Positions 1 through 49,235 of a DNA stretch of 51,041 nt are shown here, in pieces (positions within the stretch are counted from its first letter, which is position 1; each line of letters opens with the position of its first letter). This DNA comes from Saprospiraceae bacterium (GTDB lineage: Bacteria > Bacteroidota > Bacteroidia > Chitinophagales > Saprospiraceae), in NCBI GenBank assembly GCA_025056735.1, contig JANWVR010000009.1, positions 1 through 51,041 on the forward strand, read 5' to 3'. The notes beneath the pieces were generated by a model. That model saw nothing but the letters and a program-made list of their open reading frames with translations, was not told the DNA's origin and did no database searches. The position numbers were made by a program, and so were the translations under genes.

Positions 1-510
1 CGAGATATAGCCATCACGCGAGTTAATCAAGTATGGGTGGGCGATATCACATACCTTCCGCTGCAAGGCGGCAAATGGTTATACTTGGCTACTTGGATTG
101 ACCTTTATTCGCGTACGGTAGTAGGATGGCATCTGGCCGAAAACATGCGCGCTGAATTGGTGGGGCGTGCCTTGCAAAAAGCAATAGATGTTCGACGCCC
201 ACCACAGGGCCTTATCCTGCACACCGATCGAGGCAGCCAGTACGCCTCCAGAGCGTTTAGAGGGCTACTCAAAAGGCACCATTTTGAGCAAAGCATGTGC
301 CGTAAGGCCGATGCCTATGACAATGCCGTAGCTGAGTCCTTCTTCAGCCGCTTGAAGGCGGAAATGCTTCAGGGCGGTATTTTTCAAACCCTGGAAGACG
401 CTCAGACAGAACTTTTCCCCTATATCGAGGCCTATTACAACCGTAAACGGAGACATTCGGCGCTCGGGTACTTGAGTCCAATGGAATTTGAGCAAAAACA
501 TCTTTTCTAA
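1..510 (+). CDS. IS3-family transposase OrfB, DDE integrase core (5' partial)
   Basis: The frame is open from base 1 (Arg-Asp-Ile-Ala-Ile-Thr...), so the gene starts before the window and 169 codons remain. The first catalytic Asp is in VGDITY, the second in HTDRGSQY and the Glu in NAVAESFF. The second Asp and the Glu are separated by exactly 35 residues, the DD(35)E spacing of IS3 transposases. The C-terminal YYNRKRRHSALGYLSP block is also typical. The product cuts and joins the element's ends through a circular intermediate; in this family it is normally made by frameshifting from orfA. The visible part is intact, so the copy may be active. Confidence 0.93.
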   Translation, partial: RDIAITRVNQVWVGDITYLPLQGGKWLYLATWIDLYSRTVVGWHLAENMRAELVGRALQKAIDVRRPPQGLILHTDRGSQYASRAFRGLLKRHHFEQSMCRKADAYDNAVAESFFSRLKAEMLQGGIFQTLEDAQTELFPYIEAYYNRKRRHSALGYLSPMEFEQKHLF

Positions 511-520
511 CTTAACTTTG

Positions 521-545
521 TGTCCGGATTTTTGGGACCATCTCA
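521..545 (+). repeat. Probable right terminal inverted repeat of the IS3 element
   Basis: The 25 bp after the transposase stop read inward (minus strand) as TGAGATGGTCCCAAAAATCC then GGACA, a form common at IS3 ends. The terminal TGA serves as the stop codon of the interrupted reverse transcriptase. The matching left repeat is outside the window. Confidence 0.6.
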
Positions 546-866
546 CCCGTCCTCGTCCGAATGCGGCTGAATGACAAAGCCGTAGCTCGCATGCGGCCGC
601 TCTAAGTAGTAGAAGACCTGCAGATACTGATTGAGCGTGCGCTGTACTTGCTTCAATGCTGGCTTTGGGTCTTCAATCAGCTGGAACGAGCCGTCTTTTT
701 TGGGTACTTGAAACGTGCGGTACTGCGGATGCTGAACCAGGCGTTCCAAGAAAATCCGGTCCGCCTTGAGTAGAGACGCCAGTTCGGCAGGGCGACACAG
801 CGCCTTCTGGAAACGATGCAGGCTCGCTTGCGAGAAGGAAGCCCTTTGGTTAAAAGCGATAGCCAT
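543..866 (-). pseudogene. Reverse transcriptase, N-terminal fragment truncated by the IS
   Basis: About 107 residues remain from an ATG at 866 (a TTG at 926 is an in-frame alternative). The pattern matches the N-terminus of bacterial retron-type reverse transcriptases: a helical lead (RPAELASLLK), then a fingers block TFQVPKKDGSFQLIEDP, LKQVQRTLNQYL, and ASYGFV. In intact family members this is followed by the SI..NA..H and FxxDxxxF motifs, which are missing here. The frame stops at a TGA (545-543) that belongs to the IS end, so the catalytic palm, including YxDD, is separated from this fragment. The rest may survive beyond the left edge. Retron-type is my best reading, but group II intron or other RT clades cannot be excluded from this fragment. 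Confidence 0.72.
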
Positions 867-905
867 AACGATATTACAAGTTTTCGATAGCATCGCATCC
901 AAAGC

Positions 906-951
906 GCTTGAGGTAAGCGGAAGCAACTCAGGCTTCCTCCCTCGCCGGGAG
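906..951 (-). other. Two small stem-loops upstream of the reverse transcriptase remnant
   Basis: A 7-bp stem (906-912 with 927-933, one G-T pair, 14-nt loop) and a 5-bp stem (CTCCC 937-941 with GGGAG 947-951) lie between the small membrane gene and the RT start. Retron non-coding RNAs sit directly upstream of their RT, so this is where one would look for msr/msd. The stems are short, and I cannot identify a branching G or the a1/a2 pairing. Structure is seen; function is a guess. Confidence 0.25.
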
Positions 952-978
952 TTCGCGCCTCATCGGAAGGCAAAACGC

Positions 979-1167
979 CTACAGGTAGAAGTAGGCAAAC
1001 GCCAGGGCAAGCAAAATCAGAAAGATCACCCAGGAAAGGCAGCCGTCTAAGTTCTCCATCCTGGGCTCCTTCCGTATCATCAGCCTGCCCGTGAATAGGT
1101 CGCGCTCGATTACAATCCTCTCCCATGGCTTCAAGCGCTCGAAGTTGATGAAAGGCCAGAGTTCCAT
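979..1167 (-). CDS. Small hypothetical protein with C-terminal membrane helix
   Basis: A 62-residue frame starting ATG-GAA-CTC at 1167. The N-terminal about 40 residues are charged and polar (ERIVIERDLFTGRLMIRKEP). The last about 17 are strongly hydrophobic (WVIFLILLALAFAYFYL), which would make a single C-terminal transmembrane segment or tail anchor. It lies just upstream of the reverse transcriptase remnant on the same strand, 112 bp before the RT ATG. Upstream DNA is AT-rich (CTAAATTTTTTAG), as expected for a Bacteroidota 5' region. I recognise no family. Composition and context suggest a real gene, but its length makes this uncertain. Confidence 0.45.
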   Translation of the reverse strand: MELWPFINFERLKPWERIVIERDLFTGRLMIRKEPRMENLDGCLSWVIFLILLALAFAYFYL

Positions 1168-1498
1168 AACTAAAAAATTTAGTAGGTTTATGAAATCTGT
1201 TTAGCAATGACTAACTGTAGAATTTTGCCACAAAGTAACGAGTGTTAGCAACTGATTATCAAATCTTTAATACATCTCAGAGCGGACTTTTAAAAGCGCT
1301 TGATAGGCGGTCTCAAAGCCCTGAAAAGCGCTGCAAAAGACTCGCTAAAGCGGTGGAAAGACACGACACATTCCCCCATGGCAGCGGCCAACGCCTTGAC
1401 GAGCGTACCCAGATTGGCGCCCGTTAGACGCTCTGGGAGGCGCACGAAAGCTGTGCCAAATAAAAATAACTAAAAATTCCGATTGGCCAACTCTTTTC
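1168..1498. other. Intergenic region without a supportable gene
   Basis: No convincing gene is seen on either strand. A 51-codon minus-strand frame (1290-1445, GTG start) exists but has no recognisable motif. The right end holds the promoter of the following ATPase gene. Confidence 0.5.
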
Positions 1499-1506
1499 TA
1501 CTTTTG
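1499..1506 (+). promoter_or_regulatory. Bacteroidota -7 promoter element (TACTTTTG)
   Basis: TACTTTTG matches TANNTTTG and lies 25 bp upstream of the ATPase ATG at 1532, in an AT-rich stretch. The -33 element is weak. Confidence 0.6.
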
Positions 1507-1531
1507 CCGCCAGAAGCATTTAAGATATACT

Positions 1532-3766
1532 ATGTCTAAACAAAAACCCTGGAACTTAGAACTGTTCCGCGCCTTCGACGACAATTTCTCCGAAGACCAT
1601 CTACTAATCAACGCCCCCATCCGAAACTTTCTCGAAGATGAGTACATCTTCTTCCTTTCCGGTGCGAAAGGATTGGGAAAAACGCTCTTTTTGCGCTATA
1701 AAAGCCTGCTTTACCATCGGCGCTTCGGCCATTCTGTCAAATTTAACGTCAGCCAAACGGAACTCACCGAAAACCTGCGCCTACCAGCACAATATCTTTC
1801 CTACAAAGATTTGGATCGTTTCCGGACGGTGCAGCAATGGAGCGAATTGTGGGAACTGTCTTTCTATACCGTGGTTTTTCGGCTATTCGGGCTTACCCTG
1901 CCCAAGCCCATCGAGAGAATTTTACCCTTAGACTCAAATACCGACGTTTCTATCGCTATCAGCTGTTTGCTCAATCACCGAAACCGAGTACGCGAGTATC
2001 GAGATGCCCTTTTAGAATTTCAAGGTCGGCGCAATGAGGTGCAAAGCGCCGTCATTTTGTTTATTGATGACGTAGATCAGGCGCTTCATGAACTCCTCAG
2101 CAACTTTCCCAAAGAGCCCTCCCAAGATTATCAGCCCGTAACAGATGTTTGGGTAAATGCGCAGATGGGTTTGGTCAAGGCAGTGTACACCCTTAGCCGC
2201 CTGAACGCCCACATCAAAATCTACGGAACTATCCGTCGAGAAGCCTGGGAGGCATTTCAGGACCCAATGGCACTCAACTATCGGCGATATATTGCTGTGC
2301 TGGAGTACACCAAAGAGGAAGTGCAGGAAATATTCATCAAAAACATTTACCTCACGCCCCCCCAGAAAATGCCTAAATTGAATGCTTCCAACCCCGTTGA
2401 GCGATTCATTGGCTTCACGGAGATCCCACACCGATTCGCTAAGATGCCCAATGGCGAACCCAGACGCGAAAAAGTGCTTGATTTTATTTACCGCCATACC
2501 TACGGACGCCCCAGAGAAATTGTGTTGATGGGTCAGAAAATAGAGGACCTCGTCAGCGCAACGCATTACAAAGAGGCTACTGAGGAGCAACGTTTTCTCC
2601 TGCTCCGTCAGGTCGTCAACAAAATTGGCGGAGAAATCTTTGCTCAATATCGAGAGGAGATTATCCCCTACTTTGATGAGGCCGAATTAAACGACTTGAT
2701 CAGACGCATCGGCAGGAATGTGATCTTTCGAGAGCATTTTAATAGCTTGGGAGAGACGCTGCTCCGTCGCTATCTCAATTTTGGCCTCCTTGGCTATGTT
2801 CATCAGGGCGACCTGCAGGGCGGCTTAGTTCAACGATTTTTACCCCCCGCTACCTACAACTGTCATCGCCTGCGTCCATTGCCTAATACCGAATACCTCC
2901 TTGTCCACTCCACCTTAGACTCTCTAATGCTCGAGCACCATGCCTTAGGTACTTTCTATGATGAACGGAACATCATTGGCGATAGATACCCATTCGTACC
3001 CGTCGAACAGGCGCCTCAATACATCTTAGAGTACTATTTACCCAAAGGCGTCTCCGGGAATCGGTGGGGGGCTGGCAGCGAAAACGGAGGGCACCCTGAG
3101 TACGGTCTCGAGGAAGTTTACTGCACCTTTTTCAACTTCCACGAAAAACCACATCAATTCGTTGAGCGCTTTCATTCGGAGTTTCGCAAGGCGCATGAAC
3201 TCCTCACGCTTCTGGGGAGATTATGCAGCTGTCACCTCTTGTACCGAAGACTACACCGAACGGAATATCGGGAACAAAAAGAACGCTGTATAAAAGAAAT
3301 ATCTCGATACCAGGTCGTTCGCCCGTATCAAGCGAGGTTTAATGGCTTGAACGAAGAAATCACCCTGACGCGCTTTCTCGACCGATTAATCGGTCGCTTT
3401 GTCACGCTGGGCGCCCTCCTCGTGCTCGACCTGCATCTCGAGTGGATTCATGATCTCCTGACGCAGGGTCAGTTCGAATTCACTCCGCATGATAAACACC
3501 GCGCAAATGCCCTCACTTATCTTTCCCGCGCTTTCTACATCAAAGGACTTTCTCAAAACGAACCCAGGTGTCCCGACCGTCCAGAACACCTGCGCACCAA
3601 AGAGGAAATCTTCAGCCATCTCTCTCCCTTCGAACAAGACGAACTGCGTCGGTTCGCTAAGGACGTCGTCGAAGAAACCCTACACTTAAATTGGCTCGAC
3701 AAAGCTGCCGCCGAATGGCTCGACCAGAACGTCCTCAAACGAGTGTGGACTCCGCCCGGCCGATAA
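1532..3766 (+). CDS. Large P-loop ATPase of unrecognised family (744 aa)
   Basis: A cytosolic protein with no signal peptide or membrane segment. Walker A is GAKGLGKT at residues 44-51. Walker B is AVILFIDDVDQ at about 173-183, with the double Asp typical of STAND/AAA-type and KAP-like NTPases. A block at about 228-239 (IKIYGTIRREAW) resembles the post-Walker-B strand with the arginine of such ATPases. The remaining roughly 450 residues are mostly helical and aromatic-rich, and I recognise no effector or nuclease motif in them. Its neighbours are a reverse transcriptase remnant, an IS and a CRISPR-like array, so a defence role is plausible from context only. It is transcribed alone from its own promoter. 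Confidence 0.8.
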   Translation: MSKQKPWNLELFRAFDDNFSEDHLLINAPIRNFLEDEYIFFLSGAKGLGKTLFLRYKSLLYHRRFGHSVKFNVSQTELTENLRLPAQYLSYKDLDRFRTVQQWSELWELSFYTVVFRLFGLTLPKPIERILPLDSNTDVSIAISCLLNHRNRVREYRDALLEFQGRRNEVQSAVILFIDDVDQALHELLSNFPKEPSQDYQPVTDVWVNAQMGLVKAVYTLSRLNAHIKIYGTIRREAWEAFQDPMALNYRRYIAVLEYTKEEVQEIFIKNIYLTPPQKMPKLNASNPVERFIGFTEIPHRFAKMPNGEPRREKVLDFIYRHTYGRPREIVLMGQKIEDLVSATHYKEATEEQRFLLLRQVVNKIGGEIFAQYREEIIPYFDEAELNDLIRRIGRNVIFREHFNSLGETLLRRYLNFGLLGYVHQGDLQGGLVQRFLPPATYNCHRLRPLPNTEYLLVHSTLDSLMLEHHALGTFYDERNIIGDRYPFVPVEQAPQYILEYYLPKGVSGNRWGAGSENGGHPEYGLEEVYCTFFNFHEKPHQFVERFHSEFRKAHELLTLLGRLCSCHLLYRRLHRTEYREQKERCIKEISRYQVVRPYQARFNGLNEEITLTRFLDRLIGRFVTLGALLVLDLHLEWIHDLLTQGQFEFTPHDKHRANALTYLSRAFYIKGLSQNEPRCPDRPEHLRTKEEIFSHLSPFEQDELRRFAKDVVEETLHLNWLDKAAAEWLDQNVLKRVWTPPGR

Positions 3767-3982
3767 AAACCGGCGATGGTCGCGCCCCGTAGTCACTTAT
3801 TCACCTGCCCGCAACCATAAAAGCACCTTTTGCCTCCACTGCAAACAGGCAGAAGGCTGGCTCTTTCTCCATAGATAAAAGAGCGCCGACCGGGAATAAC
3901 CTAACCCGGCAAAGGCGCCAAATGCTCATCCTCACCCAACAAAGAGATAGCACCGTTGCTCGCAATTGCTCGCGACTCCTCG

Positions 3983-4087
3983 CCCCCAATCCTGCCTGAA
4001 AATGGATGGTACTCCTACAGAAATGTCAGTGTTAATTATTTTTTGTCTTGTGTCGCAATCCTGCCTGAAAATGGATGGTACTCCTAC
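3983..4087 (-). CRISPR. Minimal CRISPR-like array: two repeats, one spacer
   Basis: Two copies of the same 32-bp sequence (3987-4018 and 4056-4087) are identical at every base and lie 69 bp apart. Read on the minus strand, the first copy continues to a 36-nt unit (4087 to 4052). It begins GTAGGAGTACC and ends GGATTGCGAC, so the last eight bases, ATTGCGAC, look like a Cas6-generated 5' handle. A 33-nt spacer follows (4051-4019). The second copy (4018-3983) loses identity only in its last four bases, the usual decay of a terminal CRISPR repeat. DNA beyond the first repeat is AT-rich, as a leader would be. No cas gene is adjacent; a Cas6 gene lies about 44 kb away in this window. A chance duplication is the alternative. 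Confidence 0.6.
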
Positions 4088-4270
4088 CGAAGTGTTTGTA
4101 ACGTATTCATTGTCAATAGCATTTTTTTTGCTCAAAGTGGTGCAAATTTGACAGTTTAGAAGTTGTTAACAGTTTTAGGGGGTAGCATTTTTCACGTGTA
4201 AAGATAATGGACGACGAGCCTTTTCTCAGCAAAATTGTTTCCCAAAAATGTCAAGAAATGAATTATGAGC
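4088..4270 (-). promoter_or_regulatory. AT-rich leader-like segment of the CRISPR-like array
   Basis: This stretch abuts the undecayed repeat. It contains runs such as an eight-T tract (4122-4129) and is much AT-richer than the surrounding genes, matching the expected position and composition of a CRISPR leader for a minus-strand array. I found no exact TANNTTTG on the minus strand. Confidence 0.4.
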
Positions 4271-4397
4271 AACGAAAAGCGCTTCTCTTTGCGTTCCGCT
4301 GCAGTTAAAAAATAGAAACCTCAGTGAATGCGGGAAGCCTCGCCAGAGCGCGGCCTCTCATGAGTGCTCAACATCAGTTTTTGAAAAAAGGCCCCGC

Positions 4398-5114
4398 TCA
4401 CTCCGACATATCCATCGAATGGAACACGTTGAGCACGTCGTCGTCTTCTTCTAAGCGGTCAATGAGTTTAATGACCTGTTCGGCCTCTTCGTCTGAGAGT
4501 TTTTTGGTTACGGTCGGTATCCACTCCAGCTGGGAGTTGGTGGGTTCGATGCCGCGGTCTTCCAGCGCTTTTTGCATCTTGCCAAAGTCGGTGAAATCGG
4601 CATAAAGGACAACCTCGTCTTCGTCGTATTTGACGTCTTCCAGGCCGGCATCAATCAGTTCGAGTTCGAGTTCTTCCCAGTTTTGGCCCTCGTTTTTGAC
4701 TTTAAAGACGGCCTTGCGGTTGAAAAGATAGCTGACGCTGCCCGACACGCCCAGCGCTCCGCCGCAGCGGTCGAAGTGCAGGCGTATGTTGGCCACCGTG
4801 CGCGTAGGGTTGTCGGTGGCAGTTTCTACGAGCACGGCAATGCCGTGAGGCCCATACCCTTCGTACAAGATTTCCTGGTAGTTTTCGGCGTCTTTGCCGC
4901 TGGCCTTTTTGATGGCGTTTTCCACGTTGGCCTTGGGCATGTTAGCCTGTTTGGCGTTCTGGATGGCCACACGCAGGCGGGGATTATAATCTGGATTTGG
5001 CCCGCCGGCTTTGACAGCAATCGAAATCTCGCGCCCAATGCGCGTGAAGGTCTTGGCCATGTTGGCCCAACGCTTAAACTTTCGTTCCTTGCGGAATTCA
5101 AACGCGCGTCCCAT
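4398..5114 (-). CDS. yebC: YebC/TACO1-family protein
   Basis: 238 residues, the normal family length. The N-terminus (MGRAFEFRKERKFKRW...MAKTFTRIGREI) and blocks NPRLRVAIQNAKQANMPK, YEGYGPHGIAVLVE and FDRCGGALGVSGSV are the hallmarks of YebC/PmpR proteins. The acidic C-terminus (EEDDDVLNVFHSMD) is also typical. The family was long annotated as transcriptional regulators. More recent work on bacterial and mitochondrial members supports a ribosome-associated role in translating difficult sequences such as proline runs. It acts in the cytosol. The gene is monocistronic, with its promoter at 5155-5162. Confidence 0.95.
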   Translation of the reverse strand: MGRAFEFRKERKFKRWANMAKTFTRIGREISIAVKAGGPNPDYNPRLRVAIQNAKQANMPKANVENAIKKASGKDAENYQEILYEGYGPHGIAVLVETATDNPTRTVANIRLHFDRCGGALGVSGSVSYLFNRKAVFKVKNEGQNWEELELELIDAGLEDVKYDEDEVVLYADFTDFGKMQKALEDRGIEPTNSQLEWIPTVTKKLSDEEAEQVIKLIDRLEEDDDVLNVFHSMDMSE

Positions 5115-13578: not shown

Positions 13579-14035
13579 GCGTGTGCCCATACAGAAAGAG
13601 CTCGCGAAGACCAGGCATTCCCCCCTAAATCGGACAGAAAACAGGAGGGTAAATGCGTTTCCGAGCAGGCACACTTCTGCCTGCGGGCAAGCGCGTCTCT
13701 CGGCGGCCCTCTGTGCTCTCGGCGGTTAAAAAATTAAACACCACAGAGGACGCAGAGAAACGCAGAGCAAATGACTTGAGGCGTCGTCTTTATGGAACGT
13801 GCCGCCTTCCGCCTGGAACTTCCATCCTGTTCATCTACCATCCTGTAACCCTTTAGTTTACCGGAGGGTCTGGCGTGCCTCCTCCCTATCTTTTCATCTA
13901 TCACGCTGAAAGGCATCACATCTGGGCGGCCTGTAACCGGAAACTCCAGTTTCCGCTATTTGGCAGGTCTCAGGCGACTTTTCCCTCTGCGGTTCTTTGC
14001 GTTTTCTGCGGTTAGGTGGGGAGGCCGACACCCAG
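13579..14035. repeat. Intergenic region with dispersed repeats (no gene)
   Basis: No coding frame is credible here. CCTCTGTG (13708-13715) and CACAGAGG (13742-13749) form an inverted repeat. It is followed by CAGAGGACGCAGAGAAACGCAGAG, a CAGAG-rich motif that recurs in altered form near 13985-14016 and is a familiar intergenic element in several phyla. The second dispersed palindrome (13937-13956) also lies here. Confidence 0.5.
13937..13956. repeat. Dispersed palindrome, copy 2
   Basis: Shares CCGGAAACTCCAGTTTCCG with the copy at 10469; the outermost base pair is lost here. Both are preceded by GTA plus one base. Confidence 0.75.
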
Positions 14036-14310
14036 CCAAACAAGTTTGGCGGTTACTGGGCCGAACAAGTTCGGCGGTTACTGGGCCGAACAAGTTCGGC
14101 GGTTACTGGGCCGAACAAGTTTGGCGGTTGCTGGGCCGAACAAGTTCGGCGGTTACTGGGCCAAACAAGTTTGGCGGTTACTGGGCCAAACAAGTTTGGC
14201 GGTTGCTGGGCCGAACAAGTTTGGCGGTTACTGGGCCGAACAAGTTTGGCGGTTACTGGGCCGAACAAGTTCGGCGGTTACTGGGCCAAACAAGTTTGGC
14301 GGGTACTGGT
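14036..14310 (+). repeat. Tandem array of eleven 25-bp units, each with a small palindrome
   Basis: Eleven head-to-tail 25-bp units fill 275 bp exactly, of the form CCGAACAAGTTCGG then CGGTTACTGGG. Each unit contains a 5-bp inverted repeat around CAAG, extendable by one G-C pair. The third and twelfth bases vary together: G/C in units 2, 3, 5 and 10, A/T in units 1, 6, 7 and 11, and G/T in units 4, 8 and 9. Pairing is therefore kept in a plus-strand RNA. Because 25 is not a multiple of three and no unit has a stop, long frames open in several registers; these are artefacts. The array ends 9 bp before the stop codon of the convergent GSCFA gene. Confidence 0.95.
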
Positions 14311-14319
14311 CGTCTTGGC

Positions 14320-15303
14320 TTATAGGAGGGCGCTGAAGTGCGTTAGTTCTTCCGAGAAGTCCAGCGTTGGGTGTTGTTGGAGCAATTGCTGGATGGCGTT
14401 GTACTGTTGTTGGGCGAAGGCGCGGTGTTCGGGCGTGTCGGGGTGGAAAGGCCGGTGTGCTGCGGCGGCGCGGATGCGGGCGATGTCGGCGACGAGTTGC
14501 GCGGTTTGCGGAGGGAAGAAGGTCTGGCTGAAGTGTTCCCAGATGTAGTCCACGGCCACGTCGGAGGGGTGAGTCATGTCGGCGGCGTAGAAGCGGTAGT
14601 CGCGCAGGTCGTCGAGCATGAGTTCGTAGGCCGGGAAGTAGTGGACGAACGGGTATTGGGCGCACAGTTGTTCGCAGGCGAGCAGGAGGACGGCTTTGCT
14701 GCGCTGGTTTTCCACTAAGCCGTTGCGCAAGTGGCGCACAGGGCTGACGGTGAGGACGACATTGAGGTCTGGCCGGGCATTTTTCCATCGCTCCAACGCC
14801 GTGGCGAGGGCGCTGACGGTTTCCGCTACGGAGAGGCGGCGTTCGTCGAACCACGCTGCCGGCGCTTTGTGGTTATTGGCCACGATGCGTCCGCTTTGGC
14901 GCAGGGCAAAAACGTGCGCTGTGCCCAGCGTCAGGAGCAGGCGCTGGGCCGAAGCAGCAAAGGCGGCGGCCCGTTGGTGTGTGGCGCGCAGTTGGTGCTC
15001 GAAGGTCTCGCGCTCTGGGTGTGAGAAGCGCCCGTGGTGTTCCCAGCTGTGCCACAGGCCCTGGTGTTGGAAGATGGCTTCGGAGATGTCGGGCTCGCCT
15101 TCGAGCAGGCGCTCCAGCAGGCGAGCGATGGAAATCGGATTGTACAGGATGCCACTGGGATTGACGAGCACAGAGAACTTGTGCGCCCGGAGGCGTTCGC
15201 CGATGTGCTCGGAAAAGCAGGAGCCGATTACGACGATGCGGTCGGCGTGCGTCAGCGAAAAAGGCGCTTTCGACGGCGGCAAGACGGTGCGGAAGGTTTT
15301 CAC
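14320..15303 (-). CDS. GSCFA-domain protein
   Basis: 327 residues. The N-terminal motif VVIGSCFSEHIGERL gives the family its name. LLTLGTAHVFALRQSG, IVANNHKAPA, LTVSPVRHLRNGLVEN and FYAADMTHPSDVAVDYIWE follow in the usual order. The combination of Ser in GSCF, the Asn/His block and DxTHPS resembles the SGNH-hydrolase arrangement, so a hydrolase or acyltransferase acting on glycans or envelope components is inferred. No substrate is established. There is no signal peptide, so it should be cytosolic. It is a single gene whose 3' end abuts the 25-bp tandem array. Confidence 0.9.
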   Translation of the reverse strand: MKTFRTVLPPSKAPFSLTHADRIVVIGSCFSEHIGERLRAHKFSVLVNPSGILYNPISIARLLERLLEGEPDISEAIFQHQGLWHSWEHHGRFSHPERETFEHQLRATHQRAAAFAASAQRLLLTLGTAHVFALRQSGRIVANNHKAPAAWFDERRLSVAETVSALATALERWKNARPDLNVVLTVSPVRHLRNGLVENQRSKAVLLLACEQLCAQYPFVHYFPAYELMLDDLRDYRFYAADMTHPSDVAVDYIWEHFSQTFFPPQTAQLVADIARIRAAAAHRPFHPDTPEHRAFAQQQYNAIQQLLQQHPTLDFSEELTHFSALL

Positions 15304-48518: not shown

Positions 48519-49235
48519 TCATTGCCCCGGCGAATCGCTGATGGCCGTGCGCTCATGTTTGGGTGGAATGGGCCTTACGACACCCCAGCCGCCACTGCAG
48601 CCCTTGCCCAGGCCAACGTAATCCGGCAAAAAGACGTTGGCAGCAAACTCTAACGAGAAGGCCAAAACACGCACGCCTTTATACGATACCCAGCGCTCGT
48701 CTTTCTTACTGAGTAGCTTCACCTCTACGGTGCGCTCCGGCGTGTAGCCCATTTGCTGAAGAAAAGCCACCACCTGGTTTTGCAGGATTTTTTCTAAAAG
48801 GTACATCCGCTCTACTAACCCACTCAACCGATTGTATGTCGCATAGTTATCCTCGTTGAGCGCAATCCAATTGCGGATGTGGTAATAGCGCATTTTGTCC
48901 TCTACGCTCAGGGTATATTGCCGTACGTCTAACCGAGCAATCCGAATGGGTACGTGCCGACCGTTCAGAATGACATTCCAGTCGGGCTTAGAGAAGAAGT
49001 GGTAGGCCTCCTCGATGCCTTCGTTAAGGCACAGCAGCATAGGGCGCCCTTTGTCGTGTTTGTACTGGATGAGCGGTTGGCGGTAATGGTAACCGCCGGT
49101 CTCGTTGTCGTGATTGTGAAACATCTCATGCTCCAGACCTGCCTTGAGGGCAATGGCGGCGCGCAAATAGCGCAACTCCCATGGCTCAATGTGGGTATCG
49201 AAGGTAACGGATAGAACGCGCAGTTTTTCGTCCAT
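48519..49235 (-). CDS. cas6: Solitary CRISPR-associated endoribonuclease Cas6
   Basis: 238 residues. The C-terminal glycine-rich loop reads VLAFSLEFAANVFLPDYVGLGKGCSGGWGVVRPI, the Cas6 signature (usually GLGKxxSxGFG). The N-terminal half has FHNHDNETGGYHYRQPLIQYK, in which one of the histidines near residues 40-50 is likely catalytic, and CLNEGIEEAYHFF. The layout fits the Bacteroidota Cas6 type with two RAMP-like halves. It would cut CRISPR precursor RNA to leave an 8-nt 5' handle, as the ATTGCGAC end of the repeats at 3983-4087 suggests. No other cas gene is next to it: maeB is downstream and a permease gene lies upstream on the same strand. Confidence 0.85.
   Translation of the reverse strand: MDEKLRVLSVTFDTHIEPWELRYLRAAIALKAGLEHEMFHNHDNETGGYHYRQPLIQYKHDKGRPMLLCLNEGIEEAYHFFSKPDWNVILNGRHVPIRIARLDVRQYTLSVEDKMRYYHIRNWIALNEDNYATYNRLSGLVERMYLLEKILQNQVVAFLQQMGYTPERTVEVKLLSKKDERWVSYKGVRVLAFSLEFAANVFLPDYVGLGKGCSGGWGVVRPIPPKHERTAISDSPGQ

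Follow-up and report, generated by a model that had tools for sequence, protein, structure and literature searches.

A CRISPR array consists of direct repeats of about 23-50 nt with unique spacers of similar length between them. In type III systems, a reverse transcriptase (RT) can be encoded beside cas1, and the RT-CRISPR clades described in the accessible part of Toro et al. (2017, PMC5541045) comprise such enzymes. The same part of that paper names the VTG motif as specific for retrons, reports that Haliscomenobacter hydrossis has a retron-like RT next to CRISPR, for which it suggests a recent retrotransposition. According to the accessible part of a second paper (PMC11014452), some CRISPR RTs are related to retrons and have a separate origin. 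Searches of one literature library for Saprospiraceae CRISPR with reverse transcriptase, and for Lewinella retron with cas1 and CRISPR, returned no paper.

We analyzed a stretch of 51,041 nucleotides from a Saprospiraceae bacterium (contig JANWVR010000009.1 of assembly GCA_025056735.1, positions 1 to 51,041; hereafter the window), which carries an array with a single spacer. Its closest counterpart is a type III-B locus of a relative (genome G016, locus L084) with a free-standing, unfused CRISPR RT by cas1 and cas2. Both loci have repeats of the class GTAG/GTCG...ATTGCGAC and RTs of the same clade, and in both the array and the RT are on one strand. Unlike L084, the window has a truncated RT, one spacer only, no Cmr operon and no Cas6 of the matching lineage, and neither cas1 nor Cas10 was found. 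The array resembles orphan CRISPR arrays in having no intact cas genes beside it, but it differs from them in that its repeat and the RT fragment allow it to be traced to a type of locus. We consider it likely that the array is what remains, in shrunken form, of a type III CRISPR locus of the RT-Cas1-Cas2 kind with a free-standing RT. The best-preserved relative, L084, is of subtype III-B. One repeat-spacer-repeat unit near a broken-off RT gene gives the impression of a ruined immune locus of known kind and not of a new system. The features of the window are as follows.

1-540, plus strand: transposase with rve/rve_2 domains and the right end of its element, which we take to be of the IS3 type; the contig begins inside the element
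543-866, minus strand: N-terminus of a CRISPR-type (retron-like) RT, about 108 codons, stopping before the catalytic region
1532-3766, plus strand: P-loop ATPase, 744 aa, Sll1717-like below the family cut-off, no Pfam match; between the array and the RT fragment
3983-4018, minus strand: terminal repeat, 33/36, decayed in its last four bases
4019-4051, minus strand: single spacer, 33 nt, 24% GC, no credible protospacer
4052-4087, minus strand: leader-proximal CRISPR repeat, 36 nt, intact, with ATTGCGAC at its end
4088-4300, minus strand: AT-rich leader, 37% GC, positioned 5' of the intact repeat (compare L074, L084 and L086); the right limit is arbitrary
48519-49235, minus strand: Cas6b of 238 aa, intact and standing alone, flanked by genes for a malic enzyme and an FtsX-type permease; may act in trans as processing enzyme

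Structure of the array

An earlier note on this DNA had described two copies of a sequence, identical over 32 bp and 69 bp apart, as a 36-nt minus-strand unit with an AT-rich leader and a decayed terminal repeat, and this description proved correct. The 32-bp identity lies between 3987-4018 and 4056-4087, and the minus-strand 36-mer of the right copy (4052-4087) is GTAGGAGTACCATCCATTTTCAGGCAGGATTGCGAC. The 33/36 identity of the terminal repeat to this unit is due to mismatches at three of the last four bases, and the leader side (4088-4300) has 37% GC compared with 57% for the window. With a 36-nt repeat, a 33-nt spacer and a 69-bp period, the unit has the make-up of a CRISPR array, two repeats being the minimum. 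It is the sole exact repeat of at least 20 nt at 50-90 bp spacing in the window, aside from a tandem array near 14 kb, which is built of 25-bp units and occupies 13960-14359. On the minus strand, the 8 bases 5' of each repeat (4019-4026 at the spacer end and 4088-4095 at the leader end) match at 6/8 positions.

The repeat was searched against its own genome (3.74 Mb, 152 contigs, 100% completeness score), a check that the earlier note had proposed. Exactly two copies within three mismatches were found, both in the array and none scattered, and the backwards-read control of the genome gave zero. At the same tolerance the 32-mer was absent from the other 397 of 398 family genomes searched. Viral contigs held no exact 32-mer, and leader plus array had no match among plasmids. 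The repeat-end pattern gave three single matches in genome contigs, from a cyanobacterium, a myxobacterium and an actinomycete. Folding of the repeat equaled that of shuffled sequences (z -0.19) and was uninformative; Rfam at gathering scores returned tRNA only.

The spacer search against phages and plasmids, also proposed earlier, yielded no credible match: all matches to phages (query with repeat margins) and plasmids had E values of at least 1. A 24-nt and a 19-nt part of the spacer had no exact match in viral contigs. The middle 19-mer matched one viral contig, with about 25/33 positions agreeing by eye in A-rich, low-complexity sequence, and we take this to be a chance match. Within seven mismatches, the spacer occurred at its own site only among the window and the fetched stretches.

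Kinship of the repeat

Pairs of ATTGCGAC, the 8-nt handle of the repeat, 50-75 nt apart were sought in 198 relatives. Matches were obtained in 31 of the 198 genomes, and some were clearly repeats within coding sequence. The window's own genome gave no match; reading backwards as a control produced a small number of scattered matches, including one in that genome. Among the matches listed, 16 stretches from 15 genomes were examined, and CRISPR-like repeats were present in 14 of the 16; L079 had a short tandem repeat and L080 nothing.

The window repeat agreed with the repeats of G340 and G408 at 29/36 positions each and with one of G016 at 26/36. Because the handle had served as the search key, kinship was scored outside it, over 28 nt. 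Identity was 21/28 for G340, 21/28 for G408 and 18/28 for G016 (binomial p 4e-8, 4e-8 and 1e-5, values uncorrected for base composition and for selection from 16 variants, though 4e-8 leaves room for both corrections). A second G016 variant reached 16/28, and the other 12 of the 16 repeat variants compared had 7-14/28. The G340 array, with 41 copies in two variants (28-29/36 to the window repeat), adjoins RT, cas1 and cas2.

Repeats with a GTAG or GTCG start and a ATTGCGAC end were found, among the stretches examined, in G340, G408, G016, G067 and G392, and in 5/5 of these genomes RT, cas1 and cas2 stand beside the array. The three genes are on five of the seven stretches concerned (L074, L084, L086, L162 and L166); the remaining two (L075 and L087) come from other contigs of two genomes already among the five. 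In all five stretches with array and RT an array lies downstream of cas1, and only in G016 is there also one upstream of the RT, as in the window. A decayed array end occurs in L074 too. The fullest locus is L084, which is near-complete and has two arrays, one between Cas6b and RT and one after Cas2. By Pfam it encodes Cmr2, Cmr3, RAMP, Cmr5, RAMP, Cas6b, RT, Cas1 and Cas2. The two RAMP proteins occupy the positions of Cmr4 and Cmr6, and the first ORF, which has no Pfam match, was called cmr1 by position. Locus L166 (contig C669 of G408, repeat 29/36) also looks worn: its RT match is split in two and its Cas6 span contains a stop. In G365, a 17-repeat array with a ATTGCGAC end belongs to a different repeat class and lies on an 11-kb contig on which no cas gene was seen.

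Reverse transcriptase fragment

The ORF at 543-926 is 53% identical to the G016 RT over 77 residues; the start codon at 866 was our choice, the ORF being open to 926. The fragment ends 5' of the catalytic region of the aligned intact RTs, and the IS element ends where the RT frame is cut. A search with the full G016 RT found no further piece in the window's genome. The fragment lies about 3 kb from the array on the same strand. The earlier statement that no cas genes are adjacent therefore stands for intact genes near the array, but not in view of the RT fragment at 543-866 and of the Cas6 at 48519-49235.

With the fragment as query, 32 of the 198 genomes matched, the window's own included. 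From the 35 places in other genomes, 29 loci were retrieved, and cas1 was found in the flank of about 1.5 kb in 21 of these 29, including the 17 that matched best. A tree of 30 rows was calculated from the 21 cas1-adjacent RTs, the window fragment and eight others. The cas1-adjacent RTs and the window fragment were split from the eight others by a 100/99 branch. Within this clade of 22 rows, the window RT grouped with the RTs of G016, G340, G392 and G067 in a subset of 12 rows (96/93), a placement made from about 100 residues with 28% of the columns filled and a branch of 1.43, which leaves the nearest neighbor unsettled. The RTs near CTTCCA-type arrays (G328 and G287) are outside this subset, and RTs of the wider clade are also found near other repeat classes (L081, L155, L156 and L164). 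The fragment falls within the CRISPR clade but is truncated at the IS element, and cas1 was not found.

PADLOC labeled the RT as a retron, and NCBIfam matched far below cut-off. This assignment was rejected, as the same PADLOC labels are given to two intact cas1-adjacent RTs and so do not separate a retron from a CRISPR RT. The VTG motif is present in three of the four aligned intact RTs (G016, G340 and G067, not G392). Together with the retron-related CRISPR RTs noted in the accessible part of PMC11014452, this makes the RT type an already known kind. Compared with the accessible part of Toro et al. (2017, PMC5541045), cas1-adjacent RTs here recur in 21 of 29 loci and form one tree group. Across L090-L118 the retron-like cas1-adjacent RTs are one recurrent group, against the recent retrotransposition suggested there.

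The array and the RT fragment are in a region of lower GC content (49% for bases 541-4390, 57% beyond). In DNA comparisons with the close relatives G365, G254 and G040, the alignment breaks off at 4391-4398, next to yebC. At this spot, which carries the array in the window, G365, G254 and G408 encode a protein presumably of the metallo-beta-lactamase fold, a name of our own giving. G040 there encodes Csm4, Csm5 and two CARF-HEPN proteins of the Csx1/Csm6 type (L042, 4682-9532), so the spot took up type III parts at least once more. Elsewhere in the window, the protein at 10610-11782 matches the PADLOC candidate family PDC-S01 (3.6e-106).

Other cas genes in the genome

Profile searches of the window's own assembly found neither Cas1 nor the Cas10 palm2 domain (PF22335), and these absences carry weight because both models detect the G016 proteins. 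PF03787 matched two proteins only; NCBIfam identifies each as Cmr1, and each is cut short by the end of its contig. They are fragments of two different genes (L038, 18938-19546, at the end of contig C60; L039, 19465-19815, at the end of C16) and the only effector traces in the genome. Genes in the neighborhood of Cas6 kin in L152, L155 and L082 match the C60 Cmr1 (33-39%). As no Cas10 effector operon was found in the assembly, the locus was classed as a relic and not as a complete system. The genome is a draft of 152 contigs and the contig with the array breaks inside an IS, so missing genes may be unassembled.

A search with PF17262 identified exactly one Cas6b in the genome, 44 kb from the array in the same window. 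The protein at 48519-49235 scored 100.7 bits with PF17262 (cut-off 39.4) and 68.6 bits with PF17955 (cut-off 25), full-length over both. A search of the genome for Cas6 with PF10040 was negative; this model is blind to Cas6 of this type, as the G016 Cas6 matches PF17262/PF17955 and not PF10040. The window Cas6b is 29-33% identical to the four Cas6s encoded on the same stretch as a GTAG/GTCG array (G016, G067, G392 and contig C669 of G408); the G340 array stretch has no Cas6. In a Cas6 tree with several long branches, six Cas6s of RT loci of the G016 type were on one side of a 99/99 branch, and the window Cas6 was on the other side with 16 more. A counterpart in G365 is 89% identical and lies beside the same malic enzyme. 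Kin in G390 (75%) and G378 (70%) are on stretches where the arrays seen end in ATTGAAAC, and those in G328 and G287 (65-66%) are near CTTCCA-type arrays ending in ATTGCGAC. G408 carries both Cas6 kinds. By these comparisons, the lone Cas6b is assigned to a lineage other than that of the Cas6s beside the window's repeat class. The earlier proposal of a Cas6 acting in trans was right in that a Cas6b is present at 48519-49235, but service to this array found no support, given the 29-33% identity and the 99/99 branch. Processing of array transcripts to crRNA in trans by the lone Cas6b is possible.

Alternative explanations

The array might still work in minimal form, with the lone Cas6b cutting its transcript for a Cmr complex whose genes are unassembled; this would be compatible with an origin as an RT-CRISPR relic. 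The Cas6b ORF is full-length over both Pfam domains, the ATTGCGAC end is common to the window repeat and the arrays near the G328 and G287 Cas6s, and G365 combines the 89% identical Cas6, the same malic enzyme and a 17-repeat ATTGCGAC array. The Cmr1 fragments run off the ends of C60 and C16, so effector genes may be missing from the assembly only. However, the Cas6s of G016-type RT loci are parted from the window group by the 99/99 branch, with both kinds in G408, and the arrays near the closer kin in G390 and G378 end in ATTGAAAC and not in ATTGCGAC. Moreover, PF03787 yielded the two Cmr1 fragments only, PF22335 no Cas10, and the repeat folds no more than shuffled sequences (z -0.19). We regard a working array as unlikely. 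It is improbable, too, that the single spacer is kept as a fixed guide, in a one-crRNA array that has lost its own adaptation and effector genes and whose transcript the lone Cas6b of the other lineage, recognizing the ATTGCGAC end, would process for a Cmr complex of foreign origin or for regulation.

That the assembler kept a short version of a longer array would fit a draft of 152 contigs in which this contig starts inside an IS and both Cmr1 contigs break within the gene. Yet a single contig contains the leader, the intact repeat, the decayed terminal repeat and the trailer, and the RT truncation is a separate sign of decay, which leaves such a collapse with little probability. The earlier note had left open whether the array is shrunken or young. 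The single spacer would suit a young array starting from a single repeat, but no Cas1 was found, the CRISPR-type RT 3 kb away is truncated, and the far repeat is decayed in the manner of array ends (compare L074); the array is thus better described as shrunken, and a young one is very improbable. A chance or regulatory direct repeat, which two copies, the absence of a protospacer match and the 6/8 bases matching beyond the 5' end of the repeat would allow, is scarcely credible against the 21/28 identity outside the handle to the G340 and G408 repeats, the unit length, the leader, the decayed terminus and the nearby CRISPR-type RT. On its sequence features we regard the array as a genuine CRISPR remnant.

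Probable decay of the locus

As a remnant of a type III locus with a free-standing RT, the array would descend from a long one to whose leader end Cas1-Cas2 added new units, probably with help of the RT, as the family suggests. An IS3-type element would then have inserted into the RT gene. The C-terminal part of the RT, cas1 and the Cas10 palm domain, none of which was found in the assembly, would have been lost, and the array would have been reduced to one spacer and a decayed last repeat; we infer this order of losses, as we do the common origin of array and RT fragment. Against the relic reading, the two are 3 kb apart with the ATPase gene between them. If transcribed, the array RNA might be cut to crRNA by the lone Cas6b, with no complete effector visible. 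Since searches for Cas1, the Cas10 palm and the missing part of the RT were negative, the array probably cannot grow, and we infer that the relic is probably inert at present, above all in adaptation.

The locus provides a traceable case of the death of an RT-CRISPR locus, in which the RT is cut by a mobile element and cas1 and effector genes are missing. One spacer and a lone Cas6 are what is left. Within one genus, two Cas6 groups go with different repeat classes, some of which share the same 8-nt end, and this makes cross-processing between them testable.
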